From Weissella muntiaci (GTDB taxonomy: Bacteria > Bacillota > Bacilli > Lactobacillales > Lactobacillaceae): a DNA stretch of 44,742 bases. The translations under genes were made by a program, and so were the position numbers. Shown piece by piece: positions 23,601-42,418 of the stretch. The DNA lies in the NCBI RefSeq assembly GCF_008107635.1, contig NZ_SDGZ01000022.1, positions 1 to 44,742 of the forward strand. The letters are read 5' to 3'. A model generated the notes under the pieces. It was not told the origin of the DNA and did not search any database. It saw nothing but the letters and a program-made list of their open reading frames with translations. Every line of letters starts with the position of its first letter. Position 1 is the first letter of the stretch.

Positions 23601-23772
23601 TGTGACAACAAGTGCTGTTACAGCCGCCAACCAGAACGGTATTAAAAAGTCAGAAGCGGGGGTTCTTCCGGAAACAGGATTCGAGGATTCACCAGAAGCT
23701 CTCGTTGGTGGGCTAGCTTTGCTTGGCGGATTGGCCTTGCTCGGTGGAGCTCGTCGACGGAAGCATTTTTAA
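17635..23772 (+). CDS. Giant Ala/Ser-rich LPETG surface protein with KxYKxGKxW signal
   Basis: 2045 aa. The signal has KSYKAGKRW at residues 19-27, then a hydrophobic core ending near ASA. A Ser/Thr/Val-rich segment (~50-165) leads to a non-repeat domain (~170-322, with NKPGTYAVEYQIT, Ig-like in style). Residues ~322-1919 are Ala/Ser-rich repeats, followed by a Gly/Ser/Asn-rich wall-spanning part. The anchor is LPETG at 2011-2015, then a hydrophobic segment and RRRKHF, so sortase A should attach it to peptidoglycan. The Ala-Ser chemistry resembles the glycosylated AST domain of L. plantarum Acm2 rather than streptococcal Ser-rich repeats. It is first in an operon with 23807 and 26685. The GT4 pair at 31355-34498 are likely modifiers (inference). 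Confidence 0.93.
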   Translation: MQNYNGKEKDVEIKRTNFKSYKAGKRWLYTSSIIAAIVGGVSLTQTTASADVKADSTTNTEQATETEAGSISSKVAASEVSVGSTVASSDEANVQNASSEVATAQVQSATSSEDTVSSNVAITSADTNTVQESTDSMTTNVVDTVNAPESVATSETGSSETLAAIADSTSQNWPDVLGDGNVNMNAVNVTIKTGDTSLNELGTDGFMVAGSGTPGAATFVPAPGLSIVLATKSNDIDYTKPYTGTQLTGPVWFVNAGSDKTLPNNMIVDGHGAGVPIWNGTQYNKPGTYAVEYQITGNQPSIAGSIDAFIPGYFLITVTDDTEATSSEASSASSAASSANVVANSASTVANSASSIASSASSTASSANVVASSAANAYPSNSALQSIASNASSANSVAGSYAKDASSDASAASSHATTVSSANVEASKAASMANSAIEVGNPDAAKSYADQASNAATKANSEATLTSSAASQAMSEALQASSAAQIAVSNGNIAESIASSATNESSNNSQASSEASSASSVASSASVVANSASTVANSASSIASSASSTASSANVIASSAASAYPSNSALQSIASNASSANSVAGSYAKDASSDASAASDHATMVSSANIEASKAASMANSAIAAGDPVAAKSYADQASSAATKASSEATLTSSAASQAMSEALQASSAAQIAVSNGSVAGSIASSTANESNSSHASSEASSASSVASSANVTANSASTVANSASSIASSASSTASSANSVASSAANAYPANSAIQSAASAAASANTVTSSFANDASSHATMASSYASNVSSANIEASANASMANSANSAGNPDAAKSYADKASSAASVASSGAVLTSSAASQAMSEALKASSAAAIASSFANIASSGASSLANDHSYASQASSSASTASSAASEAGVQASSHSNNSSLSSLASNASSAASIASSAASVASSATSTGDTSTASSAASTASSAASEAVKDNSAASSIASSLDSATSSASSSEANSASSVASSANVVASSASAVANSASSIASSASSVASSANSVASSAASAYPANSAIKSAASNVASANNITSSYAKDASSHASMASSYANVVSSANSEASANASMANSANAAGEPDVAKSYADKASSAAVVASSEATLTSSAASQAMSEAIQASSAASIASSFAYIASSGASSLANDHSSASQASSSASTASSAASEASSQASNYSDNSSLSSLASNASSAASVASSAASVASSAMSTGDTSTASSAASTASSAASDAVKDNSAASSIASSIASSASSTSSSQASSASSVANSANVVASSASVVANSASSIASSASSVASSANSMASSAANAYPSNSAIKSAASTASSANSMASSYAKDASSHASMASSMATTVSSANNEASMNASLANSANASGNHDAAKSYADKASSAASIASSVATMTSSAASQAMSEAIQASSAASITNSFANIASSVASSLANDHSYASQASSNASVASSAASGVGSQSSKYPDNDSLSSLSSNASSAASVASSAASVASSATNTGDTSAASSAASVASSAASEAVKDSKAASSIASEVANSASSNGSVASSASSVASSSNVKASSANVVGNEASSLASSASSTASSANSVASSVANNYPSNSAVQSAASNASSANSIAASYASSASLHASMVDSLASQVSSANTDAAKNASLANSANATGNSDAAKSYADKAASAAVIASSDATLASSAANQAMSEAQKASSAAKDAVDNANLASSLADRDNGYASAASSSASVASSAAHETGSYASNYPDNSALSSLTSDASKMASTASSAAVVASSAAKSGDTSKASSAASTASSAASQAVKDNSAAGSIASSIAESNANHDYGKDASSSASLASSAASHAGSIASHASSNSQISSLVSDASSAASVASSAANEASKATSNGDTSKASSAASAASSAASQAVKDDSLASSIASSLASSASSNGSGSSNSNSSNSSSNNGSGSSVNNGSNSNGSNGNNVDPNGNYTGSNGLNTTNGGSAGNSTGVNKTNGSGVTTSAVTAANQNGIKKSEAGVLPETGFEDSPEALVGGLALLGGLALLGGARRRKHF
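18601..23390 (+). repeat. Six long Ala/Ser-rich repeats (two period lengths)
   Basis: The marker ATGAGTGA(A/G)GC recurs at 19054, 19612, 20167, 21013, 21859 and 22702. Spacings are 558, 555, 846, 846 and 843 bp, that is about 186 aa for the early units and 282 aa for the later ones. Later units carry an extra ~96-aa block (with SLANDH and GDTSTASSAAST). Units share SSANVVANSAS, YPSNSALQS, AKSYADKASSAA and SSAASQAMSEA. Confidence 0.9.
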
Positions 23773-23806
23773 GAGAATTGGTTATTAGGTAAAGGAAGTA
23801 TTGATT

Positions 23807-26647
23807 ATGGGTAATTATAAGAATCGCGTAAGCGCGCTCTTTGAGAAAACACAAGTTGAAAAGAAAAATACAAATTTCCGTTCATGGAAGAAGGGTAAGA
23901 GCTGGTTGTTCGCATCAGCTTTAGTTGCCTCGGTCATTGGTGGTGGTGCCACAATGATTGGTGGAGCTTCGGATGCCAGTGCGGATACAGTAACGCCAAG
24001 TACAAGTGAGACAACACAAGCTGATACAGATAGCACATCGGCCGTTACGAGTGAAGTTGCGGTTGGATCAACTGTTGCGACTAGTAGTGCTGCAATGTCA
24101 ATTAGTACGTCCGAGTCAGCAATGACTAGTGAGATTAGTTCTGCTTCAAGCGAGAGTACAAGCATTGCTTCAGGGGCTAAGAGTGTTGCTAATGAAAGTT
24201 CAACTGCAACCAGCGTAGCCGCAACATCAGTTCAGGCACAGCCAGTAACGTCATCATCTGTTGAAGCTCCAACAGCTCCTGTGGGTACTGAAGCGAGATT
24301 TAACACCGCCGCGGCTACTAGTCAAATGACGACAACGCCAGCTTTGATCACGAAAGACGTTACGGTTAATAAAGGGCAAGCCTTCCGACAAGCAGCCGGT
24401 TTCGTGGAAGCCACAGACAGTACTGGAAAGACCGTGGACAAATCAGCTATCTCAATTACGGGAGTAGTTAATTCGAATATTGCAGGAACTTACTTTGTTT
24501 TGTACAGCTTCGTGGACGTAAACGGGGCGACGGTAACTGGTAAGACGCAGGTTAATGTACGTGATACAACTAGCCCTGTAGTAACGACCTCTGATGTTGC
24601 CAATCAAACTACAACAAGTTCGCTAGCCGTTAATGGTGGAGCAGGGATGACTTTGTCATCAAATGCCGCGAACGCCTTGCAAAGTTCAGCGGTTCAATCA
24701 CTTAGCTCGCAAGTAGCTACAGCTATTTCAAATGGAGATATGAGTTTGGCGTCATCAGCAATGAATTCATTTGCAAATACTGATGCTGGTAAGTCATTTG
24801 CATCAAATGCTGTTGATATGATTAATTCAGCAGCTTCATCAATGAACTCATTGGGTTCGTTGATGGCTGACTCGCAAGTTCAAGATTTCAAAAATCAGCT
24901 ATCAGCGGCAGTTACATCATCTGACACAGCATTAGCTAAATCATTAATTGCATCATTTGCAGCTACTTCTCAAGGATCAATCTTGATGTCAATGGCTTCG
25001 AATATGCCAACTACAATCTCCAACGCAACAATTTCGTCTATCATGTCAGTTGCGTCAAGCATGGCAACGACAAGCGGGTCTGCATCTACAAATGACGCAA
25101 CAAGTGTTGCTAACGCATTCATAGCAACTTCTGAGGGACAAACTCTAATCTCGAATGCTAATTCTGCCGCTATCCTTGCTTCGAATGCTAGTTCCGCAGC
25201 AGTTTCAGAATTTGCTCAAACTTCTGAGGGACGAGCAATGATGTCGGCTTTGGATTCCTATGCCTCAAACGCTCAATATAAGGAATTTAATGAGGCAATG
25301 TCGGAGGCGGTTGCAGAATCGAATGCTAGTCTTGCATCTTCGTTAGCAAATTCATTCTTTGCAACGTCGCTTGGGGCACAATTTGGGGACGATATGAAGT
25401 CTTATGAGGCAACGGATGCTTATAAATCAATGATGGCAAGTATTTCATCTTCTGAGGATGCACTTGGAAATTCCATTAAAGAGTCAATGACACTGGCAGG
25501 GCTGTCACTTAATCCATCTGATTTGTTGAGTGGAGCCTCCAAGTTATTCTCTGGTCTAAATCCATTAAGCGGAGCCAACAAATTACTATCTAATTTTAAT
25601 CCAATGGATGTTTTAAAGAATATTACAGGAACAATTTGGAATGTAGTTAGTGGCGTAGTCCAAACGATTAATCCAATTCGAATATTACCAGATTGGTCAG
25701 GGTCAAGTTTCGGTGAATTTGCAGAATCTTGGCTTGGTGGTGTTCTTGGTGCAACGTTCTATGGCACGGCCGGCTCAGCACTTGCTGGATTTGGTGCTAA
25801 TGCAATTGCAGTTATCCCAGTAGGATTAACTAGTACGTTAATGGGGTTAATTCCAATTCTAGGCTGGGCAGGTGGACTTCATCCTTGGGTAGCTATGGGA
25901 TGGATCGGTGGAATCTCTGCATGGTTCGGTGGAACTATCTCATCAGGTATGGGTGCTTATTATGGCTCAACTATGGGCAAAGGTCTCTCAAAAGATGGAC
26001 ATGTGGATAATATTGTTAGCGGTACTGCTATTGGTGCAACTCTGGGTGCAATTGCAGGCACGACAATTAATGATTGGTTAGTAGGGTATGTTGGTGCCCA
26101 TGTTCTAATGATGATTCCAACCGTTATTACGACTATTGTAGGAACAATAGGTACAATTACTGGGGTGATTGCACCATTTACAACGGCGATTGCATCTATT
26201 GTTACGCCATTGCTCGTTACAGCGGGAACTTTTATTGGCGCACCAATTGGCGCGGCAATCGGTGGAGCAATCGGTGGAGCAATCGGTGCTCTAACTAAGG
26301 CTATGGGAATTAGTTTAACCCTCCCAGATGCCAGTCAACTCGTTAAAGATATTGCAGCCCTACCGGGGATTTCTGATTTGTTGTCAACTATTAAGGAAGT
26401 TACTGCAAAGGCGGGTACTGTTGTTACCAAGGCAGTTACTGTTGCCAAGGGTGGTGTATTCAATCTGAAGAGTGGATTTGATAAGGCCACGGATAGTAAT
26501 GGTAAAGATGTCGCTGCTTCATTGATCACTGCAACTGGATCGGTCAATACAAAGGTCCCAGGTGTTTATATTGTGGATTACAGTTATCCAGATAGTGGCA
26601 CGAATACGATTACACATGGCTATGCTCAAGTAACTGTTACGGCCTAA
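23807..26647 (+). CDS. Secreted protein with KxYKxGKxW-like signal and Gly-rich hydrophobic core
   Basis: 946 aa from ATG 23807 (AAAGGAAG 8 nt upstream; a TTG at 23801 would add two residues). The signal variant is RSWKKGKSW (25-33). Residues ~35-175 are Ser/Thr/Ala-rich. An Ig-like module follows (~178-253, VTVNKGQAFRQ ... IAGTYFVLYSF). Next is a helical Ser/Ala region (~280-560), then ~640-834 hydrophobic and Gly-rich with several membrane-length segments and a glycine-zipper-like run (GAPIGAAIGGAIGGAIGA). A second Ig-like module ends the protein (~873-946). There is no LPxTG. The function is unknown; the core recalls pore-forming or membrane-inserting proteins, but that is inference. It lies 34 bp downstream of the LPETG gene, in the same operon. 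Confidence 0.85.
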   Translation: MGNYKNRVSALFEKTQVEKKNTNFRSWKKGKSWLFASALVASVIGGGATMIGGASDASADTVTPSTSETTQADTDSTSAVTSEVAVGSTVATSSAAMSISTSESAMTSEISSASSESTSIASGAKSVANESSTATSVAATSVQAQPVTSSSVEAPTAPVGTEARFNTAAATSQMTTTPALITKDVTVNKGQAFRQAAGFVEATDSTGKTVDKSAISITGVVNSNIAGTYFVLYSFVDVNGATVTGKTQVNVRDTTSPVVTTSDVANQTTTSSLAVNGGAGMTLSSNAANALQSSAVQSLSSQVATAISNGDMSLASSAMNSFANTDAGKSFASNAVDMINSAASSMNSLGSLMADSQVQDFKNQLSAAVTSSDTALAKSLIASFAATSQGSILMSMASNMPTTISNATISSIMSVASSMATTSGSASTNDATSVANAFIATSEGQTLISNANSAAILASNASSAAVSEFAQTSEGRAMMSALDSYASNAQYKEFNEAMSEAVAESNASLASSLANSFFATSLGAQFGDDMKSYEATDAYKSMMASISSSEDALGNSIKESMTLAGLSLNPSDLLSGASKLFSGLNPLSGANKLLSNFNPMDVLKNITGTIWNVVSGVVQTINPIRILPDWSGSSFGEFAESWLGGVLGATFYGTAGSALAGFGANAIAVIPVGLTSTLMGLIPILGWAGGLHPWVAMGWIGGISAWFGGTISSGMGAYYGSTMGKGLSKDGHVDNIVSGTAIGATLGAIAGTTINDWLVGYVGAHVLMMIPTVITTIVGTIGTITGVIAPFTTAIASIVTPLLVTAGTFIGAPIGAAIGGAIGGAIGALTKAMGISLTLPDASQLVKDIAALPGISDLLSTIKEVTAKAGTVVTKAVTVAKGGVFNLKSGFDKATDSNGKDVAASLITATGSVNTKVPGVYIVDYSYPDSGTNTITHGYAQVTVTA

Positions 26648-26684
26648 ATCGTCCAATTTTGAAGCAAATTTAAGTGAGGAAATT

Positions 26685-26924
26685 ATGTTTGGTGAAATTA
26701 AATTAAAATCGTTAGAAATAAAAAAAGGAACAGCTTTTCGACTGATATCGCTCCTTGAATCTGCAATTGATTCGCAGGGGCAAACAGTCGATGCTGCTCA
26801 AATTTCATCGGTTGGTAATGTACCTGTTAATGTTCCAGGAGATTATCCAATGATGTTTTACTTTATTGATCCTCATTCAAAGATGCGAGTTGAAGGAATG
26901 ACCGTTATTAAAATAACTGAATAG
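26685..26924 (+). CDS. Stand-alone Ig-like domain protein, no signal peptide
   Basis: 79 aa, with GTGAGGA upstream and 37 bp from the previous stop. The whole protein is one Ig-like module: LEIKKGTAFRLISLLE, AIDSQGQTVDAAQISSVGN, VPGDYPMMFYFIDP. It aligns in order with the modules in 23807 (VTVAKGGVFNLKSGF ... VPGVYIVDYSY) and 27090 (VTVQRGNAWRPITNF ... IPGVYYVMYKF). It has no signal peptide, so it should stay in the cytoplasm. It may bind or cap its secreted relatives before export, protect against the hydrophobic core, or be a split-off C-terminal module. It is last in the operon. Confidence 0.75.
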   Translation: MFGEIKLKSLEIKKGTAFRLISLLESAIDSQGQTVDAAQISSVGNVPVNVPGDYPMMFYFIDPHSKMRVEGMTVIKITE

Positions 26925-26952
26925 TACGTTATATCACCAAGATTGTACTTTG

Positions 26953-26993
26953 AGGGTAGTTGGTTTCTTAACGGGAGGCCAACTACCCTTTTT
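26953..26993 (+). terminator. Strong terminator ending the 17635-26924 operon
   Basis: An 11-bp stem AGGGTAGTTGG/CCAACTACCCT (26953-26963, 26979-26989) with a 15-nt loop, then T's. Confidence 0.92.
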
Positions 26994-27089
26994 ACAAACT
27001 TAATCATAGATGGGTTATGTTAAAGAATTATGGGCTAAATTTGAAGAAATTTAGAATAATTCTGAATAATATATAGGGGTAGGGAAGGC

Positions 27090-29594
27090 ATGAAAAATAG
27101 TTTGGTTAAATCGAAAGAAGATTATAAGCATGTAAATTTCCGCCGATGGAAATCGGGAAAGAAATGGTTGTATAGTTCGAGTGTGATTGCGTTTATCGCA
27201 GGAGCTGGAATGACAATGGCGGATACGAACCTTGTCGCTCATGCGGACGACGAAAACTCTAATCAAATCCAGTCAGATATTGGTAGCTCGGCACAGACAG
27301 TGGCGCCTACACGAATGATGGTTAACGTTCAGAGCGAAACGAGTACCGTGGCTTCAAATAGTATTGAGCCGGACAAAAGTACGCCCCAAAGTGATGCTGT
27401 GGTGGCATCAGCTGGGGCTATGGTAGATAACGTAGCTGAAGAAAATTCGAGCAGCGCCGCAGAGGTCGATTCAGCGACTGCGGTAGCTAGCAGTGTTACG
27501 GGAAGCACTGTTAGTGTCGCAACAGAAAATTCAAATAACGTACAGAATGTGGATGTCAGTAGTGTTGTCCCAAATAGCGATATGGGCGCCACGTTATCTA
27601 GCGTGGCAATAGCATCCGCAGATGACATAACATTAAATATCTCTTCAAGTAGTGATGCATTAAGCTCTGCACCAACTTTTGACGTGCATAGTACGGCTGA
27701 TAGTAGTGACACTAGCCTAAGTCCAGAAGATTCAGCGATGTTGGAACAATTGGCCGAGCGGCTTAGAACAGACTCAATCTCGCTGGATAGTATGTCTTTG
27801 AGCGCTTTACCTACATCTTTGGCTAGTATTGATTTAAATAGTATGGCAAACTCGCTGGGATCATTGTACAACATGAGTTTTGGCAGCGCCATGGCCCAGT
27901 TGGTAGGTACTTTTGGCATTAAAAATCTTACCAGTGCACTTTCAACAATCATGAATAAGGCGGGTTCATTAGTGCCCGAAATTAACACGATTGCGCCAGT
28001 CGTAAATGGGATTTTAGGTGCAATTTCGGCCGCTCAAAATATGGGTAGCGCAATTGGAATAGATTCAAATAAGATGATTGCGGATATCATTAACAATGGT
28101 GTTAATCTACTAGGGAAAACCTTACTTAGAATTACAGAACCAATTGTTAAGCAGATTCCGTTGATTGGTAGCAACATATCAAGTGTCATTACACCAATAT
28201 TGTCTGATCTATCCAATATTAGCCCCGCTTCAATTGTTAAGACTTTGGCGACGGGTGTAGGTTTGGGCGGATTGCTTGATAAAGTCACTCAAATCACTCA
28301 GACGGTAACGCCAGTTGTAATTAATGGCTTGCAAAAAGCCATCAATGCCGCGACTGGCATAATTAATAAGATCAAGCCAATCGTGACGGGAATTGCTGAT
28401 AAAGTTTCTGGGCCACTATTGACGACGATTAAGAATCTTGCGAATGGAATTTTAGCGCCAATCAAGAATGTAATTAACAATGTGATTGGAAAGCTTACCG
28501 GTAAAAATGATTCTAGCTCTAGTGCTGGATCGATGTCATCAAGTGCTAGTTCCGTAGCATCAAACGCCTCTTCAAATGCTAGCTCCACAACATCAAGTGC
28601 GACAACAAATGTTTCTGCTCAATTGGTGACGCGAGATGTGACTGTGCAGAGAGGAAACGCTTGGCGACCAATCACCAACTTTGTTAATGCCAATGATTCT
28701 ACTGGTAAATCGATTTCGGCAAGTGAAATTTCAATTACAGGTACGGTCAACTTGTCGATTCCTGGAGTTTACTATGTGATGTACAAGTTTAATGATTTAA
28801 CCACAAAGCGTGTAATTCAACAGGTTGCATCAGTGACTGTTTCGAGTAGCAACCTATCAAGCTCAAACGCCAACTCGAAAACCCTAGCAGCAATTTCGCG
28901 GGTTACCAGTTCAATTGCTGCTTTGCCAAATTCGAGCAGTAATTTGGCAAGTAAATTCAAGGCAACCTCAAATTACCCAGGGTCAGATACGGTTTATCTA
29001 GCGGCCGAGGAAAATTTCACACCTGATATTGAAAAGATTAATGGATACTTTTTAGAGTATGTAAATGAGTTGCGGGCGAATAATAATCTACCGTCATTGA
29101 CTTATTCGGCAGACGAACAGTTATTTGCTCAGCAGCGGGCGCAAGAAATTGTCAATAACTTTAGCCACAGTGGATCAAATGGCTCAACAGAAAATATTGG
29201 TACCACTCAGGGAATTATAAGCAAACTCCAATCAAATCAAGAAATTGCTTACTATATGGTAATGAACTGGTATGACGAATCAGATAACCTGGAGGGACTA
29301 GGAGTGGGACATTATGGTCATCGTGCCAATCTATTGTTTGGAGGTCAAAAAATGGGCATAGGCTTGGTGCTGGTAAAATCGCCTGGCGCAAGATTTGATG
29401 AATATCATGCCTTTGAAGCTCCACAATATACAGATGAAATAATCTATAAAAAGGCAGATGCAATGGCTAAAAGTATTGTTGATCCAAAGACGGTTCCTCT
29501 AGCTAATAAAACTTTTGTTTATGTTAAGTCACCTGAGTTTGCGGCTCTCAATAAACAATTGCAACAATATACGGCTCAGTTAAAAGAGGCATAG
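27090..29594 (+). CDS. Secreted CAP-domain protein with KxYKxGKxW-like signal
   Basis: 834 aa. The signal variant RRWKSGKKW (18-26) is followed by a hydrophobic core ending near AHADD. Residues ~40-240 are Ser/Ala/Val/Thr-rich. Residues ~250-473 form a long amphipathic helical region rich in Ile/Leu/Val/Asn. Then comes a short Ser/Ala linker and an Ig-like module (~509-585). A C-terminal CAP (SCP/PR-1) domain follows at ~641-780: YVNELRANNNLPSLTYS, FSHSGSNGSTENIG, MVMNWYDES, GHYGHRANLL. There is no LPxTG. CAP proteins of lactobacilli are secreted and cell-surface associated; their activity is poorly defined. It heads the operon that also holds the small membrane peptide, the coiled-coil protein and the GT4 pair. 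Confidence 0.88.
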   Translation: MKNSLVKSKEDYKHVNFRRWKSGKKWLYSSSVIAFIAGAGMTMADTNLVAHADDENSNQIQSDIGSSAQTVAPTRMMVNVQSETSTVASNSIEPDKSTPQSDAVVASAGAMVDNVAEENSSSAAEVDSATAVASSVTGSTVSVATENSNNVQNVDVSSVVPNSDMGATLSSVAIASADDITLNISSSSDALSSAPTFDVHSTADSSDTSLSPEDSAMLEQLAERLRTDSISLDSMSLSALPTSLASIDLNSMANSLGSLYNMSFGSAMAQLVGTFGIKNLTSALSTIMNKAGSLVPEINTIAPVVNGILGAISAAQNMGSAIGIDSNKMIADIINNGVNLLGKTLLRITEPIVKQIPLIGSNISSVITPILSDLSNISPASIVKTLATGVGLGGLLDKVTQITQTVTPVVINGLQKAINAATGIINKIKPIVTGIADKVSGPLLTTIKNLANGILAPIKNVINNVIGKLTGKNDSSSSAGSMSSSASSVASNASSNASSTTSSATTNVSAQLVTRDVTVQRGNAWRPITNFVNANDSTGKSISASEISITGTVNLSIPGVYYVMYKFNDLTTKRVIQQVASVTVSSSNLSSSNANSKTLAAISRVTSSIAALPNSSSNLASKFKATSNYPGSDTVYLAAEENFTPDIEKINGYFLEYVNELRANNNLPSLTYSADEQLFAQQRAQEIVNNFSHSGSNGSTENIGTTQGIISKLQSNQEIAYYMVMNWYDESDNLEGLGVGHYGHRANLLFGGQKMGIGLVLVKSPGARFDEYHAFEAPQYTDEIIYKKADAMAKSIVDPKTVPLANKTFVYVKSPEFAALNKQLQQYTAQLKEA

Positions 29595-29629
29595 TCGGCA
29601 AATTTATAAGTGAGACGGGGGAGATTTAG

Positions 29630-29752
29630 ATGCAAAGAAATAAGAAACGAGTTTCAGGATTACAGATTATTATCAAAATTTTCGTGGTGTTGATGTTGTT
29701 GCTTTCCTTATCGGGAATCTTGATTACGCTAATTCAAGTAATTGCAAAATAA
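29630..29752 (+). CDS. 40-aa single-pass membrane peptide
   Basis: ATG 29630, with GGGGGAG 6-7 nt upstream. The first eight residues are basic (MQRNKKRV); then a single long hydrophobic segment (about residues 12-38) ends IQVIAK. It sits 35 bp after the CAP-protein gene and 61 bp before the coiled-coil gene. Ribosome site, spacing and composition all support a real gene. It resembles in size and topology the small SecE/SecG-like subunits (Asp4/Asp5) of some accessory Sec systems, but I see no sequence match. The function is unknown. Confidence 0.7.
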   Translation: MQRNKKRVSGLQIIIKIFVVLMLLLSLSGILITLIQVIAK

Positions 29753-29762
29753 GTAAGGCAAT

Positions 29763-29777
29763 CTTATTTGAAATAAG
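29763..29777. promoter_or_regulatory. 15-bp palindrome before the coiled-coil gene
   Basis: CTTATTT-G-AAATAAG is a perfect inverted repeat. It lies 36 bp upstream of the GTG start and 10 bp after the small membrane gene. It could be an operator or part of an internal promoter; no clear -10/-35 is visible. Confidence 0.3.
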
Positions 29778-29813
29778 TTACTGATATTATTTTTGATTAT
29801 ATAGGGGGCTATA

Positions 29814-31352
29814 GTGGCAACTACTCAAAGGAAAAAATATGATGAATTTCTCGATCTATCAAACGAGATAGTGACGGATGTATTTGATGTTAGTGAAAGA
29901 GAGAAACAGATGAGCCGTGAAGGACAAGATGGTCGACTAAATGGTATTGATATTGCTGAAATAGAGAATATTTTAAGTGCAGGTACGAGCAATTTTAGCC
30001 TTAGACGTGAGCAAGACAGCACCGAGGTAACTGAAGATGATATAACCGAATCTACGGACAAAGTTGAGGAGGAGCATGATGATTCGAATCGTGTTGTTAC
30101 TCATGATGATGAGGAAAGTACCACGGATGAATCGGAAACGGTGACCAAGTTTGAGGAAACGGAGTCAACTGTAGTGAAGGAGAAGGATAACCTTGCGCCA
30201 ATGAAGGCAGCGAGTCAAGAATTTATTAGCGAGTCACCAAAAACTGCAGAGTCAATGTCTGAAGGAAGTGCAAACCAGATTGACTTAGACCAAAGCTTAT
30301 CTGAACTAGAGGCCGTTGCCGATAATATTGATGAGACGGTTCCTGATCAAATGCCAATTCTAGACACGACAAAAAATGACCATCAAGTCGAGTTAGCGGG
30401 CTCTGACGGAAATGAAAATAGTACTTCAATTAACGTGCTGTTAGCAGAACAATTAAATCGAGTTGTGACGCAGAATAATTTGATGATCGCTCAGGTTGAT
30501 CAATTACAGAAGTACAACGATGAGTTATACCGCAAGAATAATAAATGGCAAGAATATCGTAACGAGGCCACGGTATACATTCATAATACTAATGAAAAAT
30601 ATGAACAGATAATTAAGGATCTGAAGAATAGTCATGCACAGGAACTCGATACAATTGAAAATGAGTGGGCAAAGCAATTCGAAGATAAATCAACCGAAGT
30701 TGAAAAACGATATATGGATTTCGAGCAGAAAACGAAAAGCATCACTGATGCAGGACGTAAAGAGCGTATTTCACTCGAGGCACGGATTAAAACACTGCAG
30801 GACAACGAAGCTCAACTTCGACAAAAGTATGATGACGAGAAAATTAATCGACAGCACTTGGAAACTAGACTTCGAAATGCGGAACAAGAAATTGCCAATT
30901 TCGACGAAGAGCATGGTCGAATTGAAGAAACTAGCAATAAAAATCTTGTTAAGGTACAACAACAAACCGAACAAGTTGATTTATTAAATGAACGGATTCG
31001 TACCTTGATTGAACAAAATAAAGCTTGGGAGCATCAGGTTGATGAGCTAAAGCAAAAGTCAATTGATGATTTTAAAAATACACGTAATCAAATGGATCAG
31101 ATTATCGCTGATTTGACTGACAAAAACGCGGCTTTAGATGCGCAGAAGCAAACGTTAGAAAATAAATATGCAGCCGTCCTTCAAAGGACGCGTAGCTTGG
31201 AATATACCACAAGAAACTTGCAGGAACAAAATAACGATCTTATCAAGAGAGTTAAGCAAAATGATGACCAAGATTTGAAGTTGGATGCCGATGGGGTACC
31301 CGACTTTAATAATGATTTCCCCTTTTCGACGCAAGACAGGAGTGACAAGTAA
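29814..31352 (+). CDS. Cytoplasmic acidic/coiled-coil protein, unknown
   Basis: 512 aa from GTG 29814 (GGGGG six bases upstream; no ATG fits). It has no signal peptide or membrane segment. Residues 1-~55 form a compact N-terminal part (KKYDEFLDLSNEIVTDVFDV, IDIAEIENILSAG). Residues ~65-205 are strongly acidic and low complexity. Residues ~210-490 form a long coiled coil with heptad-like Leu/Ile/Val spacing (LLAEQLNRVVTQNNLMIAQ, YAAVLQRTRSLEYTTRNLQ). It sits between the membrane peptide and the GT4 pair, with only 2 bp to the first GT4 gene, so co-expression is near certain. I do not recognise a family. A scaffold, chaperone or export adaptor for the surface proteins is possible (inference). 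Confidence 0.85.
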   Translation: MATTQRKKYDEFLDLSNEIVTDVFDVSEREKQMSREGQDGRLNGIDIAEIENILSAGTSNFSLRREQDSTEVTEDDITESTDKVEEEHDDSNRVVTHDDEESTTDESETVTKFEETESTVVKEKDNLAPMKAASQEFISESPKTAESMSEGSANQIDLDQSLSELEAVADNIDETVPDQMPILDTTKNDHQVELAGSDGNENSTSINVLLAEQLNRVVTQNNLMIAQVDQLQKYNDELYRKNNKWQEYRNEATVYIHNTNEKYEQIIKDLKNSHAQELDTIENEWAKQFEDKSTEVEKRYMDFEQKTKSITDAGRKERISLEARIKTLQDNEAQLRQKYDDEKINRQHLETRLRNAEQEIANFDEEHGRIEETSNKNLVKVQQQTEQVDLLNERIRTLIEQNKAWEHQVDELKQKSIDDFKNTRNQMDQIIADLTDKNAALDAQKQTLENKYAAVLQRTRSLEYTTRNLQEQNNDLIKRVKQNDDQDLKLDADGVPDFNNDFPFSTQDRSDK

Positions 31353-31354
31353 GT

Positions 31355-32881
31355 ATGAATTATTTTGTGAACGAAAATATTTTTACGATGAACTCTGGGA
31401 CGGAGTTTTCGGCGATTCGCCGACTAAAAATGTTCTTGGATAATCAAATTGAAGCTAAAATTATTACACGTAATTATAATTCACAGCTGGAAGGTGACCT
31501 TTTAAATGCAGATGTGAGCCCGGAATACGTCTTAAATATGTATGATTATTTTCAAGATGTTGTAAATGTGCCAAGCAAAGATGTAAATGTGCGTTATACG
31601 GAGATCATCGATAAGAATATGTATCATATTGAGGGTGTTGATGCAAATGAAACACTTATCAAACATGCGGGGAAAACGATTGCCAAAGTACATATCGCTC
31701 CGGGGACGATTGGGATGATTGGCTCAATGGATTTTCTTAATGATATGAATGAGCTTGTGACTCAAGATATTTGGGATCGACGTGGGTTTAAGTCATCGAC
31801 AAATTACTTCCATCCTGACGGCACATTGGGCGCGCAAGTTTTCTTTGACCGGAATGGAAGAGTAAAGATTGAAGTGACCCATATGAATGTTGGTGATACG
31901 TTACAACCAACAATGTATAAATTATTAGACTACAAGGGACAAAACTACCGTTTTAATACAGAGAATCAACTATTTACTTTCTTTATGAACGAGTTGGCTG
32001 CTGAAAAGCCAAGTGTCTTTATCAACGATCGGCCTTCGTTAGTCAGTGCCGTTGTAGCAGTTTCAAATGCCCAAGGTAAGTGGCAAGCGCTACACAATGC
32101 ACATGCTGAAAATAATCGTCAGGCGGGCGGTGCACCAGGAGTAGTAAGCTACTTGGATGAACTGTTTACCAAATATAATCAAGACTTTGATGGTTTGATT
32201 GTGGCAACTAAACAGCAGCGAGATGAGATTATGAAGTTTCATAACTTTAAGCAAGTAGTTGTCTTGCCCGATACATTTGTGGAAAATGTTAGGCTACCTG
32301 CTGTTAGCAAGCGGAATAAAAACAAAATTGTCTATGTAGGGCGACTGTCATATGATAAGAAGCCAGCCGATGTCTTAGAGATTTTACGACAAGTTCATCA
32401 AAAGAATCCAGCTGTTGAAGTTGACTTCTATGGATACGCGACACCATCAACGGTGCAAGAAGATATGAACAAACTTGTTGAGAAGTATGATTTAAAAGAT
32501 ACAGTACATTTTAAGGGTTATCAAAAGGCAGATGAATTAGATCAAGCACTACGTGAGGCGGCCTTATTAATTAGTACTTCTGAAAGTGAAGGTTTCGGGA
32601 TGTCGATACTTGATGCAATGAGTTATGGGCTTCCCGTAGTAGCTTACGACGTGAAATACGGACCGAGTGTACTAGTTGAAAATATGGTTAACGGTCGTCT
32701 TGTACCGTACGGTAGCATCCAAACAGCTGCGAACGCGGTTTTGGAGATTCTTGATGACGAAGAAAAATGGACCCGTTTCTCGAAGTCGTCTAAAGAGCGT
32801 GCCAAAGAGTATTACGAAAAGTCAGTTTGGTCAAAGTGGAAAGAGACGCAACGTAAAGTCAACACTTTATTTATAGATTAG
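31355..32881 (+). CDS. GT4 glycosyltransferase, GtfA-like, first of a pair
   Basis: 508 aa, soluble. It has the GtfA/TarM-type N-terminus (MNSGTEFSAIRRLKMF) with a beta-rich insertion, then a GT-B donor half: IVYVGRLSYDKKPADVLE, VDFYGYATPS, and SESEGFGMSILDAMSYGLPVV. The usual EX7E motif reads E412...D420 here, so the second acid is Asp rather than Glu. Neighbours 6431 and 32891 keep Glu at this point. Retaining GT4 enzymes use this region to bind the nucleotide sugar, so activity may be altered. It starts 2 bp after the coiled-coil gene and is followed 9 bp later by 32891. Paired GT4 proteins of this type (GtfA/GtfB of L. plantarum) are both needed to put GlcNAc on Acm2 (established there). 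Confidence 0.85.
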   Translation: MNYFVNENIFTMNSGTEFSAIRRLKMFLDNQIEAKIITRNYNSQLEGDLLNADVSPEYVLNMYDYFQDVVNVPSKDVNVRYTEIIDKNMYHIEGVDANETLIKHAGKTIAKVHIAPGTIGMIGSMDFLNDMNELVTQDIWDRRGFKSSTNYFHPDGTLGAQVFFDRNGRVKIEVTHMNVGDTLQPTMYKLLDYKGQNYRFNTENQLFTFFMNELAAEKPSVFINDRPSLVSAVVAVSNAQGKWQALHNAHAENNRQAGGAPGVVSYLDELFTKYNQDFDGLIVATKQQRDEIMKFHNFKQVVVLPDTFVENVRLPAVSKRNKNKIVYVGRLSYDKKPADVLEILRQVHQKNPAVEVDFYGYATPSTVQEDMNKLVEKYDLKDTVHFKGYQKADELDQALREAALLISTSESEGFGMSILDAMSYGLPVVAYDVKYGPSVLVENMVNGRLVPYGSIQTAANAVLEILDDEEKWTRFSKSSKERAKEYYEKSVWSKWKETQRKVNTLFID

Positions 32882-32890
32882 GTAGGATGT

Positions 32891-34498
32891 ATGATATTTT
32901 TTATTAATTCAACGTTTAATCGCAAAAATTCTGGTATTGAACATGCGCAATTAAAGCGTGCAAAGTTATTTCGCGATCATGATGAGCCATTTAAATTAGT
33001 CTTTCGAGAATGGAATCCATCATTACATCGTTTCTTAGATGAAGTGGGAGTGCGAGTAGACGAGACTCTAGCAATGTTCGATTATTTCCAGAAGACAGAG
33101 GATGTGGAGGAAACGATTGTTACAGTTGGTAATCTAGATTTTGGTGTCAAAGACGCGGTCTATACTAAAGAAGCTGGTCAAGATTTTTATGCTGTGACTA
33201 GTGGCAATCAGCTGCTGGCACGCGTCAGATATTTTACTGATGATCCAGATGAACGTGTTAGCGCCGTCGAATATTTTGATGGGTTTAATAATCTCTATCG
33301 AGTAGACTTCTATGATTACCGTGGATTTATTAGCTTAGCACAGTGGTATACTCCGGATAACAAGATTGGTACGGAAGTCTGGTATGATCTTGCTGGAAGA
33401 CCAGTCCTTGAAACGTTTAACAAGTATGATGGCGTTCAAAACTATACTAAGGCAGGTTGGCGGTTAACAGAAACAGATGGGAAGGTATATGTGTTCTCAA
33501 ACATTGATGAACTGACCTTACATTTCTATAATCGATTGAACGAACAGTATTGGCAAGATGATAGTGCAAATATATTCATCATGGATCGAACCCATCTGGC
33601 CGATTGGGCATTGCTTGAATTAGACCGGCCCGCTTATAGTGTGCTACATCTGCATAATTCACACGCCGGAGACGCACAAGATCCAATGCATTCTGTAATG
33701 AACAATTTCTATGAATACTCACTAACAAATGCAAATAGTTACGATGCGATTATCTCGGCAACGAAGAAACAGACGCATGATGTACGTATGCGCTTTAAGC
33801 CAACGGCCAAGTTATTTACAATTCCCGTTGGAGTTGTGCCAGATGCCGATTTTGTGACAAAGCAAATTCCCATGAGCCAACGAAAAAAGCATAGTATCTT
33901 GGTAACGGCGCGAATTGCGCCAGAGAAGCGAATTGATCATATTATTCGTGCCATGGGAATCGCCAAGCAACAAGTGCCAGATATCTCAATTGATGTATAT
34001 GGCTATATTGATCATCGTGATAACGATGCGGCCATTAAAGCGATTAATGCTGTGATTGAGGAGTATGATCTAAACGATGCAGTCTCAATTAATGAATATG
34101 CTAATGACGTTGCAAGCATTCAAAATGGCAGTCAGATTTATGGACTTGCATCCGTGATGGAAGGGTTCAATCTTTCGATGATGGAAGCGATTAGCCATGG
34201 AATGGTCGGAATAACCTATGATGTTAATTATGGTCCAAATGAGTTAATTGTTGATGGCGAAAATGGGTATGTTGTTCCTTACGAGGGAATCGATGCGATG
34301 GCAGATAAGTTAGTGGAATTATTTACTGATGAAGCTGAGTTGCAAACAATGTCAACACGTTCATATGAACTAGCTGAACGATATTCAGAAGAGAATGTTT
34401 GGAAGGCTTGGAAGAAATTACTAAATGATGCCAAGAAGAAGAATATTGAATTTGTACCAAGAATTACAAACGGTTTGGGAAATCTAATGAAAAAATAA
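32891..34498 (+). CDS. GT4 glycosyltransferase, GtfA-like, second of a pair
   Basis: 535 aa, soluble. N-terminus RKNSGIEHAQLKRAKLF, matching 6431's NLSGIEHAQLYR. Donor half: ARIAPEKRIDHIIRA, IDVYGYIDHRD, and MEGFNLSMMEAISHGMVG with an intact EX7E (E424, E432). It is therefore the more clearly catalytic partner of the pair, probably transferring a sugar from a nucleotide donor to Ser/Thr of the surface proteins, with 31355 as co-subunit (inference). GGTAGGA precedes the ATG. It is the last gene of the operon; a strong terminator begins 73 bp later. Confidence 0.87.
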   Translation: MIFFINSTFNRKNSGIEHAQLKRAKLFRDHDEPFKLVFREWNPSLHRFLDEVGVRVDETLAMFDYFQKTEDVEETIVTVGNLDFGVKDAVYTKEAGQDFYAVTSGNQLLARVRYFTDDPDERVSAVEYFDGFNNLYRVDFYDYRGFISLAQWYTPDNKIGTEVWYDLAGRPVLETFNKYDGVQNYTKAGWRLTETDGKVYVFSNIDELTLHFYNRLNEQYWQDDSANIFIMDRTHLADWALLELDRPAYSVLHLHNSHAGDAQDPMHSVMNNFYEYSLTNANSYDAIISATKKQTHDVRMRFKPTAKLFTIPVGVVPDADFVTKQIPMSQRKKHSILVTARIAPEKRIDHIIRAMGIAKQQVPDISIDVYGYIDHRDNDAAIKAINAVIEEYDLNDAVSINEYANDVASIQNGSQIYGLASVMEGFNLSMMEAISHGMVGITYDVNYGPNELIVDGENGYVVPYEGIDAMADKLVELFTDEAELQTMSTRSYELAERYSEENVWKAWKKLLNDAKKKNIEFVPRITNGLGNLMKK

Positions 34499-34571
34499 TT
34501 TGGATTTGTAGTGCTTTTGTTATTAAAGGTTAGTTTCAAGACTGGCTATATCAAATATCTGAATAAGATGT

Positions 34572-34617
34572 ACCTCAAGATCTGTAGTAAATACTACTTA
34601 TTTTGAGGTCTTTTTTT
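34572..34617 (+). terminator. Terminator ending the 27090-34498 operon
   Basis: The outer stem ACCTCAA/TTGAGGT (34572-34578, 34603-34609) with an inner GTAGTA/TACTAC hairpin is followed by CTTTTTTT. Confidence 0.9.
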
Positions 34618-35059
34618 GGATTTATATCTATGTGTCACCATGACGTCTCCATCAAATAAGTCTATTATTTGCGACCAGGAGGCCGAACATTCCAAGTTAG
34701 TATATATATTAATGAAATGGTCCTTAAATGATTTTGCTATTCTTGGAACGCATTTTCGATTGGTTGATATATCAAAATGGAATGGAATTATAGGTACAAA
34801 TTGTAAATATTGGCTTTAAATGTCAATAATTGAGTAATTATTAAGCATAATATGATAAAGAAATGTTTTTTTTGTGGGTTATCATATAAATGTATGTTAA
34901 TCACCAAGCAGCTCAATATTAAGGATTCAAGAGCTGGTGATCTTGAAGGGGGTTCATACGATGAATGAAGTTTTGATTATAAGGGGACAATTTAATCATA
35001 AAATGATTTGAACTTTGTAATCATTAACTTAAAATCTTTGGGGTTTAGGAGAATTGGTT
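34618..35059. other. Leader region of the LPDTG mucin-binding-type protein
   Basis: 440 bp with no gene longer than a leader peptide. It holds a bulged hairpin (34900-34941, ATCACCA/AGCTC arms with GAGCTGGTGAT) followed directly by GAAGGGGG and a 16-codon ORF (34961-35011). This arrangement suggests control of the adhesin gene. The GGAGAA ribosome site of the main gene is at 35048-35053. Confidence 0.4.
34961..35011 (+). CDS. Possible 16-aa leader peptide
   Basis: MNEVLIIRGQFNHKMI, with a strong GAAGGGGG site 8 nt upstream, right after a hairpin and 48 bp before the adhesin start. The ribosome site is better than that of many neighbouring genes, which argues for translation. There is no run of codons pointing to a specific attenuation signal. 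Confidence 0.35.
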   Translation: MNEVLIIRGQFNHKMI

Positions 35060-38000
35060 ATGACAAAGGAAAAATATGATCGGGCAATGGCTCATGAGTC
35101 GAGAGAAATTGCAAAACGGTTTAAGATGTACAAAAGCGGTAAACAGTGGTTGTTTGCTGCGTCAATGTTTCTAGCAATTGCTGGTGGTGGAGCACTAAGT
35201 GCACATGCTGACACTGTTTCAGCTGATGCAGAGAGCCAGCCAGAAGATGTTGCTGTTAATTCAAATGCGCCCACAAATGGGAATAGTTTAGTGCTTTCGA
35301 AGAATGATGAAAGTGTAAATTCTAATACAGCAAGTTCAAGCAACAATTCCGAAGCAGTTGCACAAAGTACCTCATCAAGTAGTAACATTGCATCAAGCGT
35401 TAACTCAAATGATAGCTCCGCTAAGCCAACGGAGGCTAATAGTACCGAAGCAAATAATTTAGCAACAATTAGCACTTCGAGCACAGAAACTGGTTCAGTT
35501 AATGTTAAATATCAAACGGCTGATGGTACTGATATAATTCCCTCAACTACTGTATCTGGAACTGTCGGCGACCGGTATTCAACCAATCCAGCTATAATAA
35601 AGAACTATCATTTGGTATCATCACCGTCAAACAAAAATGGAACATTTACTAGTACTAATGCTGATGTGATATACATTTATACACCTGATACTCAGTATGC
35701 ATACGTTAGTTATGTTGACGACAATACGGATGTTGAATTGAACAACGTAATGTTAAGTGGTGTTGGAGGTACAACCAGCAGTTACCTAACAAATGAGGAA
35801 ATTGAAAAGTGGAGGACACAAGGATATGAAGTTGTTTCACAAGATTATCCTAGTGGCGGTGTTACATTTGACATCAATGATGCTGTAAATCAATTATTCA
35901 CTGTACACTTTAAACACGCTTTGAAGACAGTGACACCTGATCAACCAGGGACGCCCGGAACGCCAATTGATCCAAGTAATCCGACTGGACCAAAGTGGCC
36001 AGATGGGTCTGATAAAAATTCACTGGATAAACTGATTAATGAGACTGTGAAGTACGTTTATGCGGATGGGTCAAAGTCACCAAGTTATGCGACCGATTCT
36101 ATTGAGTTCACTCGAACAGCAACAATTGATGAAGTAACTAGCGAGATAACTTATGCTGATTGGATGGCCAAGAATAACGATACTTCTTTTGACAAGAAGG
36201 TAACGCCAGTTGTTGATGGGTATTATGCCGATAAGGCGCAAGTTAACCAAATTGACGGTCTAACTGCAGACAGTAAGGACGTTAATGAGACTGTTACCTA
36301 TAACAAACTTGGTAGTCTTGTACCAACACCAAGTGATCCAAATGATCCAAGTTGGCCAAAGACCCCAAGTGTAACTTATCCAAACGATCCTACGGATCCT
36401 ACACAACCTGGCAAGGTTACTGTTCCTGATGTACCAGGATATACACCACAAGATGGTAACGGTAATCCATTGAAGCCAGGTGATACAATCACCCCAGCAA
36501 ACCCTGGAACTGATACACCAATCAAGTATGTAGCCAATGATGAAAATGCAACAGTTACATTTATTGATGATACAACTGGTAAGACGTTGACGGATGGTAC
36601 GAAGAACCTAACTGGTAAGTTCGGTACGACGGATAGTTATACAACGGCGGGGGATATTACGAACTATGAGAAGCAAGGCTATGAGTTGGTTTCTGATGGT
36701 TATCCAGCTGGTGGTGTTGTTTATAATCAAGATGGAACTGTCCAAAGCTTTGAAGTACATTTGAAGCACGCAACTAAGACAGTTACACCTGAGCAACCCG
36801 GAACTCCGGGAACACCAATTGATCCAAGTAATCCAACCGGTCCTAAGTGGCCAAATGGTTCAGACAAGGATTCATTAGACAAAAAAGTTAATGAAACCGT
36901 AAACTACGTTTACGCTGACGGTTCAAAGACGCCTACGTCTGTTAATGATTCTGTTGAGTTTACGCGGACGGCTACGGTTGATGAAGTTACCGGTGCAGTA
37001 ACTTATACTGATTGGTCAGCCAAGGATAACGATACTTCCTTTGATAAGAAGGTAACACCAGTTGTTGACGGGTATTATGCCGATAAGGCGCAAGTTAACC
37101 AAATTGACGGTCTAACTGCAGATAGTAAGGACGTTAATGAGATTATTACCTATAACAAGCTTGGTAGTCTTGTGCCAACACCAAGTGATCCAAATGATCC
37201 AAGTTGGCCAAAGATCCCAAGTGTAACTTATCCAAATGATCCTATGGATCCTACGCAACCTGGTAAGGTTACAGTTCCCAATGTACCAGGATATACACCA
37301 CAAGATGGTAACGGTAATCCGTTGAAGCCGGGTGATACAATCACTCCAGCAAACCCTGGAACTAATACACCCATCAAGTATGTAGTTAATGATGAGAATG
37401 CTACGGTTAAATTTATTGATGATACAACTGGTAAGACGTTGACAGACGGTACGAAGAACTTAGCTGGTAAGTTTGGTACGACGGATAGTTATACAACGGC
37501 GGGGGATATTGCGAACTACGAAAAGCAAGGCTATGAGTTGGTTTCTGATGGCTATCCAGCTGGTGGTGTTGTCTACAATCAAGATGGAACTGTCCAAAGT
37601 TTTGAAGTACATTTGAAGCACGCAACTAAGACAGTTACACCTGATCAGCCAGGAACTCCAGGAACGCCAATTGATCCAAGTAATCCAACTGGTCCTAAGT
37701 GGCCAGTTGGAACAGATAAAAAATCTGTTGATATTATCATTACTGAGACTGTTACCTATGAATTTGAAGATGGTACAACAGCATCTAATACTGTTGTTGA
37801 TCAAGTAGAGTACACTCGTACAGCTATAGTAGATGAAGTAACTGGTGAAGTTACGTATACTGATTGGGTAGCTAAGGATGGCGACACCACTTTTGATGCG
37901 AAGATTTCACCAATAATCAATGGATATATTGCTGATCATGCATCAATTGACGCAGTAAGTGGCATTACTATTGATAGTAAGGATCTGGCATATAAGGTAA

Positions 38001-38260
38001 TCTACAGTAAAGTTAGTGTACCAAACAATCCTGGCACACCAACTGATAACGGAACCGACAATAATGTTGTGAATCAAAATAACAACACAGGTGATAGTCA
38101 TAAAGTAGTTAATACATTGTTAGATACTGCTACTAATAAGGGCGCAAGTGTATTACCTGATACAGGTATGCAAAGTGCTTCTGAGCTATCAGTCATTGGT
38201 GCGTTGATTTCAAGCTTAGGTATCTTTGGATATTATCTATCAGGAAAAAAGCATAAGTAA
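35060..38260 (+). CDS. Mucin-binding-type LPDTG adhesin with KxYKxGKxW signal
   Basis: 1066 aa from ATG 35060 (AGGAGA 7-8 nt upstream; a TTG at 35054 would add two). The signal has KMYKSGKQW (22-30) and ends near AHADT. A Ser/Asn-rich linker (~40-145) leads to a MucBP-like module (~148-215, VNVKYQTADGTDI ... YIYTP). Mub-type repeats follow: 284 aa each, two full and one partial, with ATVTFIDDTTGKTLTDG, GYELVSDGYPAGGV, PGTPGTPIDPSNPTGP and WPDGSDK. The anchor is LPDTG at 1032-1036, then a hydrophobic segment and KKHK. It should be wall-linked by sortase A and bind mucin or host glycans, by analogy with Mub proteins. It is followed 16 bp later by an antitoxin-like gene. Confidence 0.93.
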   Translation: MTKEKYDRAMAHESREIAKRFKMYKSGKQWLFAASMFLAIAGGGALSAHADTVSADAESQPEDVAVNSNAPTNGNSLVLSKNDESVNSNTASSSNNSEAVAQSTSSSSNIASSVNSNDSSAKPTEANSTEANNLATISTSSTETGSVNVKYQTADGTDIIPSTTVSGTVGDRYSTNPAIIKNYHLVSSPSNKNGTFTSTNADVIYIYTPDTQYAYVSYVDDNTDVELNNVMLSGVGGTTSSYLTNEEIEKWRTQGYEVVSQDYPSGGVTFDINDAVNQLFTVHFKHALKTVTPDQPGTPGTPIDPSNPTGPKWPDGSDKNSLDKLINETVKYVYADGSKSPSYATDSIEFTRTATIDEVTSEITYADWMAKNNDTSFDKKVTPVVDGYYADKAQVNQIDGLTADSKDVNETVTYNKLGSLVPTPSDPNDPSWPKTPSVTYPNDPTDPTQPGKVTVPDVPGYTPQDGNGNPLKPGDTITPANPGTDTPIKYVANDENATVTFIDDTTGKTLTDGTKNLTGKFGTTDSYTTAGDITNYEKQGYELVSDGYPAGGVVYNQDGTVQSFEVHLKHATKTVTPEQPGTPGTPIDPSNPTGPKWPNGSDKDSLDKKVNETVNYVYADGSKTPTSVNDSVEFTRTATVDEVTGAVTYTDWSAKDNDTSFDKKVTPVVDGYYADKAQVNQIDGLTADSKDVNEIITYNKLGSLVPTPSDPNDPSWPKIPSVTYPNDPMDPTQPGKVTVPNVPGYTPQDGNGNPLKPGDTITPANPGTNTPIKYVVNDENATVKFIDDTTGKTLTDGTKNLAGKFGTTDSYTTAGDIANYEKQGYELVSDGYPAGGVVYNQDGTVQSFEVHLKHATKTVTPDQPGTPGTPIDPSNPTGPKWPVGTDKKSVDIIITETVTYEFEDGTTASNTVVDQVEYTRTAIVDEVTGEVTYTDWVAKDGDTTFDAKISPIINGYIADHASIDAVSGITIDSKDLAYKVIYSKVSVPNNPGTPTDNGTDNNVVNQNNNTGDSHKVVNTLLDTATNKGASVLPDTGMQSASELSVIGALISSLGIFGYYLSGKKHK
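35698..38010 (+). repeat. 852-bp Mub-type repeats
   Basis: The marker ACACCTGA(T/G)CA occurs at 35933, 36785 and 37637, exactly 852 bp (284 codons) apart. Units 2 and 3 are nearly identical over hundreds of bases; unit 1 has diverged at its 5' end and unit 3 is cut short before the anchor. Confidence 0.92.
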
Positions 38261-42223: not shown

Positions 42224-42418
42224 ATGAACTTATTTGGATTTAAAAGAAATGATAATGTGAAAAACACTAATTTTAAAATGTATATGAGTGGAAAAAATTG
42301 GGTTTTTGCTTTGGTATTTTTAGTTTCCATTGGAATTGCAAAGAATCAAGACATTAGCATTCCAGATCAAAGGGCAAATATTAATTCTGAATGGAGCGTA
42401 TATGCTAGTGAGGCGTAA
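42224..42418 (+). pseudogene. Truncated KxYKxGKxW surface-protein gene
   Basis: It begins MNLFGFKRNDNVKNTNFK, with the motif variant KMYMSGKNW (18-26; Met replaces Lys at the fourth position), a hydrophobic core and a VYASEA cleavage-like site. It then stops at TAA within a few bases of the IS3-like element. Only a signal peptide of 64 residues is left. GGAGG lies 3 nt before the ATG. It is a close relative of the gene at 43798 (MNLFKNKNVKNSHFK). The element probably inserted just after the signal-peptide codons and the rest was lost. Confidence 0.75.

Follow-up and report, generated by a model that had tools for sequence, protein, structure and literature searches.

The window analysed here, positions 1 to 44,742 of contig NZ_SDGZ01000022.1 from Weissella muntiaci (assembly GCF_008107635.1), carries at 17635-34498 a relative of the spcB-spcC-spcD-spcA cluster of L. 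rhamnosus, followed by two glycosyltransferases (GTs) of the GtfA family. The system is not new: clusters of this kind were known, though not from this genus, and for one recurrent member no description was found in the literature searched. That member is encoded by the gene 29814-31352 (CC, for coiled coil; forward strand, GTG start, 512 aa). Judged from sequence, CC is the real novelty, as a coiled coil is found at this recurrent place in several species. The original prediction had seen an undescribed system in the last five genes of the run, a claim that falls because spcB-spcC-spcD-spcA and the two GTs are already in Gagic et al. (2012; PMC3584209). We consider it somewhat probable (about 0.6) that the genes form an spc-type surface glycoprotein cassette, in which an Ala/Ser-rich fibre would undergo cytosolic glycosylation and the coiled coil would act as accessory protein or scaffold. 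The comparison extends the spc cluster from Lacticaseibacillus to a Weissella-type genome.

According to Gagic et al. (PMC3584209), the L. rhamnosus genes are arranged spcB-spcC-spcD-spcA, with two GtfA-family GTs following in strains GG and Lc 705, and phage display identified the N-terminal A region of SpcB as the part bound by SpcA. The cluster was termed unique to L. rhamnosus, although the authors noted that L. zeae has an SpcA-like C-terminus and L. parafarraginis a distant relative of SpcB. Several spc genes are listed as variable in L. paracasei (PMC9145642). For the modification and export of the giant, Ala/Ser-rich SpcB, the sections of PMC3584209 consulted offer only proposals. A concrete, unexamined player in this question is the gene that separates spcA from the GT pair, and it is found in a probiotic species amenable to experiment.

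Our reference for L. rhamnosus is genome G098. It very probably belongs to this species because its SpcB, at 3390 aa, has the length published for Lc 705, and the 571-572 aa of its SpcA compare with a published 503+68 (PMC3584209). The region 17635-34498 of the window matches G098 gene for gene and in equal order, a 40-aa peptide excepted. Shared with L. rhamnosus are an Ala/Ser-rich docking protein with KxYKxGKxW signal and LPxTG anchor, a protein with two Big-3 domains and a small cytosolic Big-3 protein, then a secreted protein with Big-3 and PR-1/SCP domains and finally the two GtfA-family GTs. The coiled-coil gene is present in G098 as well and is unmentioned in the consulted sections of PMC3584209. 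In strain GG, spcA has the tag LGG_01589 and the GTs have LGG_01587 and LGG_01586, which leaves LGG_01588 in between. We infer from this numbering and from G098 that LGG_01588 is the coiled-coil gene; neither a mention of the tag nor a description of CC was found in the open-access articles searched.

All four surface-related genes are on the forward strand. The SpcB-like docking or fibre protein (17635-23772, 2045 aa) has a KxYKxGKxW signal, an A region, long Ser-Ala repeats and an LPxTG anchor, with family matches to PF19258, PF00746, and TIGR04319 (nine stretches). Its composition (29% Ser, 25% Ala) bears out the earlier statement that an Ala/Ser-rich candidate acceptor adjoins the GT pair. 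It matches SpcB of G098 at 31% over 331 aa (E 8e-8). This stretch takes in the A region reported to bind SpcA and is partly of low complexity; by this alignment, the A region is conserved in the window protein. The SpcC-like surface protein (23801-26647) has a KxYKxGKxW-type signal, two Big_3 domains (PF07523) and a TIGR03715 match above cut-off, and matches its G098 counterpart at 36% over 940 aa. The SpcD-like protein (26685-26924, 79 aa) has one Big_3-like domain and is devoid of a signal sequence. It shows 32% identity over all 79 residues to the product of the G098 gene in the equivalent place. No Pfam match was obtained for it, and Pfam alone misses its Big_3; a profile built from the SpcD-like proteins of the window and G098 matches Big_3-bearing neighbours. 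SpcD-like genes of 79-81 aa are found at the equivalent place in G098, G288, and G327, and the protein appears as a signal-less, cytosolic version of a surface domain. The SpcA-like secreted protein (27090-29594, 834 aa) carries a CAP domain (PR-1/SCP, PF00188, E 4.4e-9) and, by Pfam, one Big_3 (PF07523); no second Big_3 was detected, whereas SpcA of L. rhamnosus has two together with PR-1/SCP. Its KxYKxGKxW signal scores 17.3 bits, below the Pfam cut-off of 23.6, and its C-terminal CAP part is 52% identical to SpcA of G098.

G288 and G327, two genomes from the genus of G098, also have spc-type clusters, each with an interrupted or split spcA-like gene. Lentilactobacillus parafarraginis (L127) has a partial spc-type cluster beside a GT pair of the inverse gene order (YX, see below). 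Among the fetched neighbourhoods of CAP relatives, 14 of 16 were without relatives of SpcD or of the GT pair beside the CAP gene.

The GT pair consists of GtfX (31355-32881, forward strand, 508 aa) and GtfY (32891-34498, forward strand, 535 aa). Both match PF00534 and NF047880, and GtfY also TIGR02918 (200 bits). The matches to the SdgA/SdgB and GtfA models extend over almost the whole of each protein and stay under the cut-offs of these models. Compared with G098, GtfX agrees at 49% and GtfY at 66%. The best matches of the pair in the PDB are 7ec1/7ec3/7ec7, listed as group 1 glycosyl transferase (7ec1 with E 7.5e-46 for GtfX; 7ec7/7ec1, and also 5e9t, for GtfY). We take 7ec1 to be SdgB. NF047880 is matched over nearly full length with 237 (GtfX) and 254 (GtfY) bits; since the cut-off is 800, the pair belongs in the SdgA/SdgB family but is not SdgA itself. 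On these matches we class it as a pair of the GtfA/GtfB (SdgA/SdgB-like) kind. The L. plantarum pair has been likened to this kind in print, so that the resemblance to L. plantarum proteins, as originally predicted, is upheld. L. plantarum GtfA/GtfB (Gtf1/Gtf2), staphylococcal SdgA/SdgB, and the window pair each consist of two tandem GT4 proteins whose N-terminal domain is extended, and one of the two partners has the catalytic motif. The window pair differs in its order, X then Y, and in its place inside a substrate operon. The related L. plantarum pair does priming glycosylation in the cytosol, according to a 2018 review (PMC5796085), in which the DUF1975-type GT pair of L. rhamnosus GG is described as not tried on the known glycoproteins Msp1 and SpaCBA.

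The catalytic motif rule for GT4 enzymes is E-x7-E. GtfY of the window keeps this motif; in GtfX the second motif residue is changed from E to D. An alignment of 69 loci has the motif kept in 68 of 69 GtfY sequences, with a gap in the remaining one; among the GtfX sequences the second residue is lost in 12/69 (window included) and the first in 8/69. This fits GtfY as a catalytic GtfA-type enzyme and GtfX as a degenerating GtfB-type partner.

Gene order was counted among 80 relatives, retained out of 120 from named genomes. YX is the order at 67 of these loci and XY at 7, and a further 6 are arranged differently or are partial. In the tree of the 69 loci, 12 XY loci form a single clade with support 1.0. 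These are the window, a second locus of the same genome (C7), G209, two G098 loci, and seven named Streptococcaceae loci; the nearest neighbour of the window is a locus from Lactococcus nasutitermitis (support 0.98). The W. oryzae locus, with a cut GtfX that is 60% like that of the window, stands outside the tree and brings the XY clade to 13 loci. The genome of the window (G000; 2.29 Mb in 35 contigs, the window lying on C15) has three GtfX-type matches (C15, C7, and C6), each with a GtfY partner.

CC is acidic (116 acidic vs. 65 basic residues). No transmembrane segment was found in it, this call and the coiled-coil call being made with crude scripts, and no family matched above cut-off. A profile of the 29814 protein and two paralogues, run over 397 family genomes, retrieved homologues in 4: two in the genome of the window, one paralogue in W. 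oryzae, and one each in G098 and G209. A search of plasmids with 29814 returned no match. Outside the genus of the window, CC thus occurs in two of the 397 genomes (G098 and G209), in both beside an XY-order pair. The contig of G209 ends just past CC, so that the remainder of its cluster is outside the sequence. The distance from CC to GtfX is 2 bp in the window, 26 bp in G209, and 48 bp in G098, which represent three genera. The original prediction had called for a look at the neighbourhood of 29814 and GT4 pairs in other genomes, and the outcome is positive in two further genera. It had also considered homologues remote from GT pairs as a point against a link. Here the picture is mixed, as three of the five clear members, 29814 counted, precede a GT pair and the two Weissella-type paralogues do not.

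CC might also be a passenger, that is, a fast-evolving gene in a mobile surface-protein region with no part in glycosylation or display. Its patchy distribution (4/397 family genomes) suits this, as does the result for the genus of G098, where among 30 genomes CC was found in G098 plus one weak match (E 3e-4). Sequence conservation is low, and the window has an integrase-core transposase gene. A passenger would nevertheless hardly keep a constant slot, 2-48 bp from GtfX, in three genera despite large sequence distance, and in two other clusters a weaker relative likewise comes next after the spcA-like gene. We consider a mere passenger unlikely.

The two other clusters are those of G288 and G327. 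The gene following the spcA-like gene encodes a protein there with a 24-residue block in common with CC of G098 (15/24, E 1e-8), which suggests a weak link to the CC family.

The five clear members share a short peptide: PxFxxDFP is found within 25 residues of the C-terminus in 5/5 and, among open reading frames (ORFs) of 60 aa or more from the fetched loci, is confined to the CC family. A long, acidic protein with a short conserved peptide near its C-terminus could also be a DivIVA-like polar or septal scaffold which determines the site of fibre synthesis or anchoring and leaves glycosylation untouched. The CC paralogues that two genomes encode at a distance from GT genes suit such a general scaffold, and three of the five members start with M-[AG]-[MI]-F-x-[KR]-K, a sequence that could contact the membrane. 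The recurrence of CC directly upstream of GtfX, and of a second, unrelated coiled-coil family likewise, points instead to the GT pair or its acceptor, and we regard a polar scaffold as rather doubtful.

This second family, of ~1,050-1,110 aa, precedes GtfX in C7 of the window's genome, in Lactococcus nasutitermitis, and, in broken form, in W. oryzae. The C7 locus (L044:5622-12097, L148:671-12838) encodes a 4055-aa surface protein whose start resembles KxYKxGKxW, then the coiled coil (1112 aa), GtfX, and GtfY. The 1112-aa protein has no Pfam match, and its homologue in Lactococcus nasutitermitis (L121:6805-9945) is at the corresponding place. A coiled coil thus precedes GtfX in 6 of the 13 XY-clade loci, three from the CC family and three from the unrelated one. 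That two unrelated coiled coils occupy one slot is the most interesting fact of this analysis. Profile comparison gave a probability of 0.6% that the 29814 family and the 1,112-aa coiled coil are homologous, and this relationship was rejected. A profile-comparison figure of 99.9% is not independent, one sequence being contained in both alignments. Order-wide, the 1,112-aa family matched in 9 genomes besides that of the window (of 395; best E 9.5e-10), and in the ORF scan values went down to 2e-22 with composition-bias terms of ~120-180 bits; we tentatively take the order-wide matches as chance coiled-coil matches. A fusion of a coiled coil with a GtfB-like domain, suspected by eye in G327 (L219:6278-8506), was also rejected (profile comparison 0.4%; 0.2% for a second candidate).

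Several results weigh against coupling CC to the glycosylation of the fibre. The remaining 7 of the 13 XY-clade loci are without a coiled coil in front of GtfX, which makes it not essential to the GT pair. The CC paralogues on C13 of the window's genome and in W. oryzae are situated away from GT genes. A genome search with the five CC sequences missed G288 and G327 at E 0.001; it took a small ORF set to bring G288 to E 1.1e-6, and G327 did not attain 1e-5 in that set, and the window CC compared to the G288 protein alone gave E 0.76. No XY pair, PxFxxDFP motif, or intact spcA-like gene was found in the G288 and G327 clusters. Finally, a search of seven more named genomes, run without a positive control, found no CC.

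With these points set against the recurrent position, we still favour the glycoprotein cassette, which might operate as follows. A long Ala/Ser-rich SpcB-like precursor would be synthesized, and in the cytosol GtfY, as catalytic partner, and GtfX, as acceptor-binding one, would put a priming sugar, probably GlcNAc, on Ser residues of the fibre. The Ser-rich part of the SpcA-like protein is perhaps glycosylated by GtfXY also. CC would most likely be a cytosolic scaffold or holder that joins the GT pair, the translocase, or both to the long unfolded precursor, and its PxFxxDFP peptide would serve as docking site. The precursors would exit by a Sec route via the KxYKxGKxW signal, possibly through the SecA2/Asp system encoded in this genome. 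The LPxTG motif would then anchor the fibre, and the secreted SpcA-like protein would dock on the N-terminal A region through Big_3. The 40-aa peptide is probably not needed. The sequences themselves establish the identity of the cluster, its gene order, its domains and catalytic motifs, and the recurring place of the coiled coil; SpcA-SpcB binding was demonstrated in print for L. rhamnosus, whereas glycosylation, the sugar, the way of export and the function of the coiled coil are inferred. A more specific proposal is that CC is a dedicated cytosolic scaffold or chaperone for Asp-independent O-glycosylation of giant Ala/Ser-rich fibres, docking through PxFxxDFP, and that this job has been filled at least twice by unrelated coiled coils; we put this forward tentatively, as a possibility that falls short of even odds.

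The five genes CAP surface gene (27090-29594), small peptide gene (29630-29752, forward strand, 40 aa), CC, GtfX, and GtfY are all on the forward strand with intergenic gaps of 35, 61, 2, and 9 bp. They are closed by a terminator-like hairpin (34568-34618, forward strand; RNA fold -18.2 kcal/mol, z -3.74, 0/200 shuffles as good), a T run following the hairpin at ~34570-34617. Co-direction, gaps, and end terminator are as initially described. A simple terminator scan missed this hairpin, with 4 terminator-like sites vs. 5.6 in shuffles. A stronger hairpin with T run at ~26952-26995 (26952-26995, forward strand; -30 kcal/mol, z -5.50, 0/200 shuffles as good) parts the SpcD-like from the SpcA-like gene, and hence 26685 from the five-gene unit. 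In this the window differs from L. rhamnosus, since no terminator was reported between spcB and spcA in HN001 (PMC3584209). The upstream genes 17635, 23801, and 26685 belong to the same cluster as the five-gene run, so that the full order is 17635, 23801, 26685, 27090, 40-aa peptide, coiled coil, GtfX, GtfY. The promoter scan gave 27 promoter-like sites vs. 27.3 in shuffles, and because these counts are equal no promoter is supported.

Another difference from L. rhamnosus is the extra 40-aa peptide. It is a single-span peptide that resembles DUF4044 (PF13253) in its basic N-terminus and its one membrane span (E 0.0033), with a score below the Pfam cut-off (17.3 vs. 21.8 bits). A 40-aa gene on C5 of the same genome encodes a relative: the two peptides align with a score of 114, whereas 2000 layout-keeping shuffles averaged 34 and reached 58 at most. 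Unlike the family proper, both copies score below the Pfam cut-off. DUF4044 is presumably the Pfam family of MacP (the text of the MacP paper holds no 'DUF'). DUF4044-like matches at E<=1 were obtained in 28/28 genomes of the genus, 14/28 being over cut-off; this threshold is loose, as it also rang in 10/14 controls, with 1 over cut-off. A similar peptide was not found in the gap from spcA to the coiled-coil gene in G098, G288, and G327. We take the peptide as a captured paralogue of a DUF4044-like peptide. Because of the C5 paralogue, the DUF4044-like relatives in the genus, and the negative result for the corresponding gap of three other clusters, it is probably not a component of the system by the refutation criterion that the original prediction had set.

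The original prediction had made this peptide part of a membrane-associated glycosylation or export complex distinct from SecA2/Asp. Its position inside the gene run, with gaps of 35 and 61 bp, agrees with such a role, none of the window genes analysed was a SecA2/Asp gene, and L. rhamnosus, which has the cluster, has been reported with a single secA (PMC3584209). The missing peptide in the matching gaps and the DUF4044-like paralogue elsewhere speak against it, as does a complete SecA2/SecY2/Asp1-3 set in the window's own genome. These genes lie in a row on another contig (C32, L146:3-10514) as SecA2, SecY2, Asp1, Asp2, and Asp3, Asp1-3 scoring above and SecA2 and SecY2 below equivalog cut-offs, and adjoin genes for two sugar transferases and for a KxYKxGKxW protein that is truncated where the contig ends. 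We consider a membrane complex of this kind highly improbable, and with this locus in the genome the predicted distinctness from SecA2/Asp is not supported. Accessory Sec loci share KxYKxGKxW substrates, a GtfA/GtfB-type priming pair, and cytosolic accessory proteins with the window cluster. The latter differs in having no adjacent SecA2, SecY2, or Asp gene (none was found among the cluster proteins in family scans) and in its coiled coil, as no Asp model matched the 29814 protein. Given the complete accessory Sec locus in this genome, the SpcB-like precursor may use it there.

Beside the spc clusters of G327 (L219) and G288 (L220), which have no XY pair within the fetched stretch, a 487-aa protein with an SdgA-like N-terminal half (E 4e-10) is encoded, along with orphan proteins without family matches.

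Other genes of the window are also related to the cell surface. Directly downstream of the cluster, 35054-38260 encodes a MucBP_2/Muc_B2 repeat protein with KxYKxGKxW signal and LPxTG-type anchor. Another surface protein and glycosyltransferase unit is formed by a second KxYKxGKxW surface protein (2434-5841) and an 818-aa GT4 protein (6443-8899) distantly like GtfX/GtfY. An integrase-core (rve) transposase gene (42461-43042) is located beside a 64-aa ORF with KxYKxGKxW signal (42224-42418), and the surrounding region may be mobile. Two Mga helix-turn-helix proteins (11079-12593 and 40321-41844, both on the reverse strand) flank the surface-protein region and may control it.

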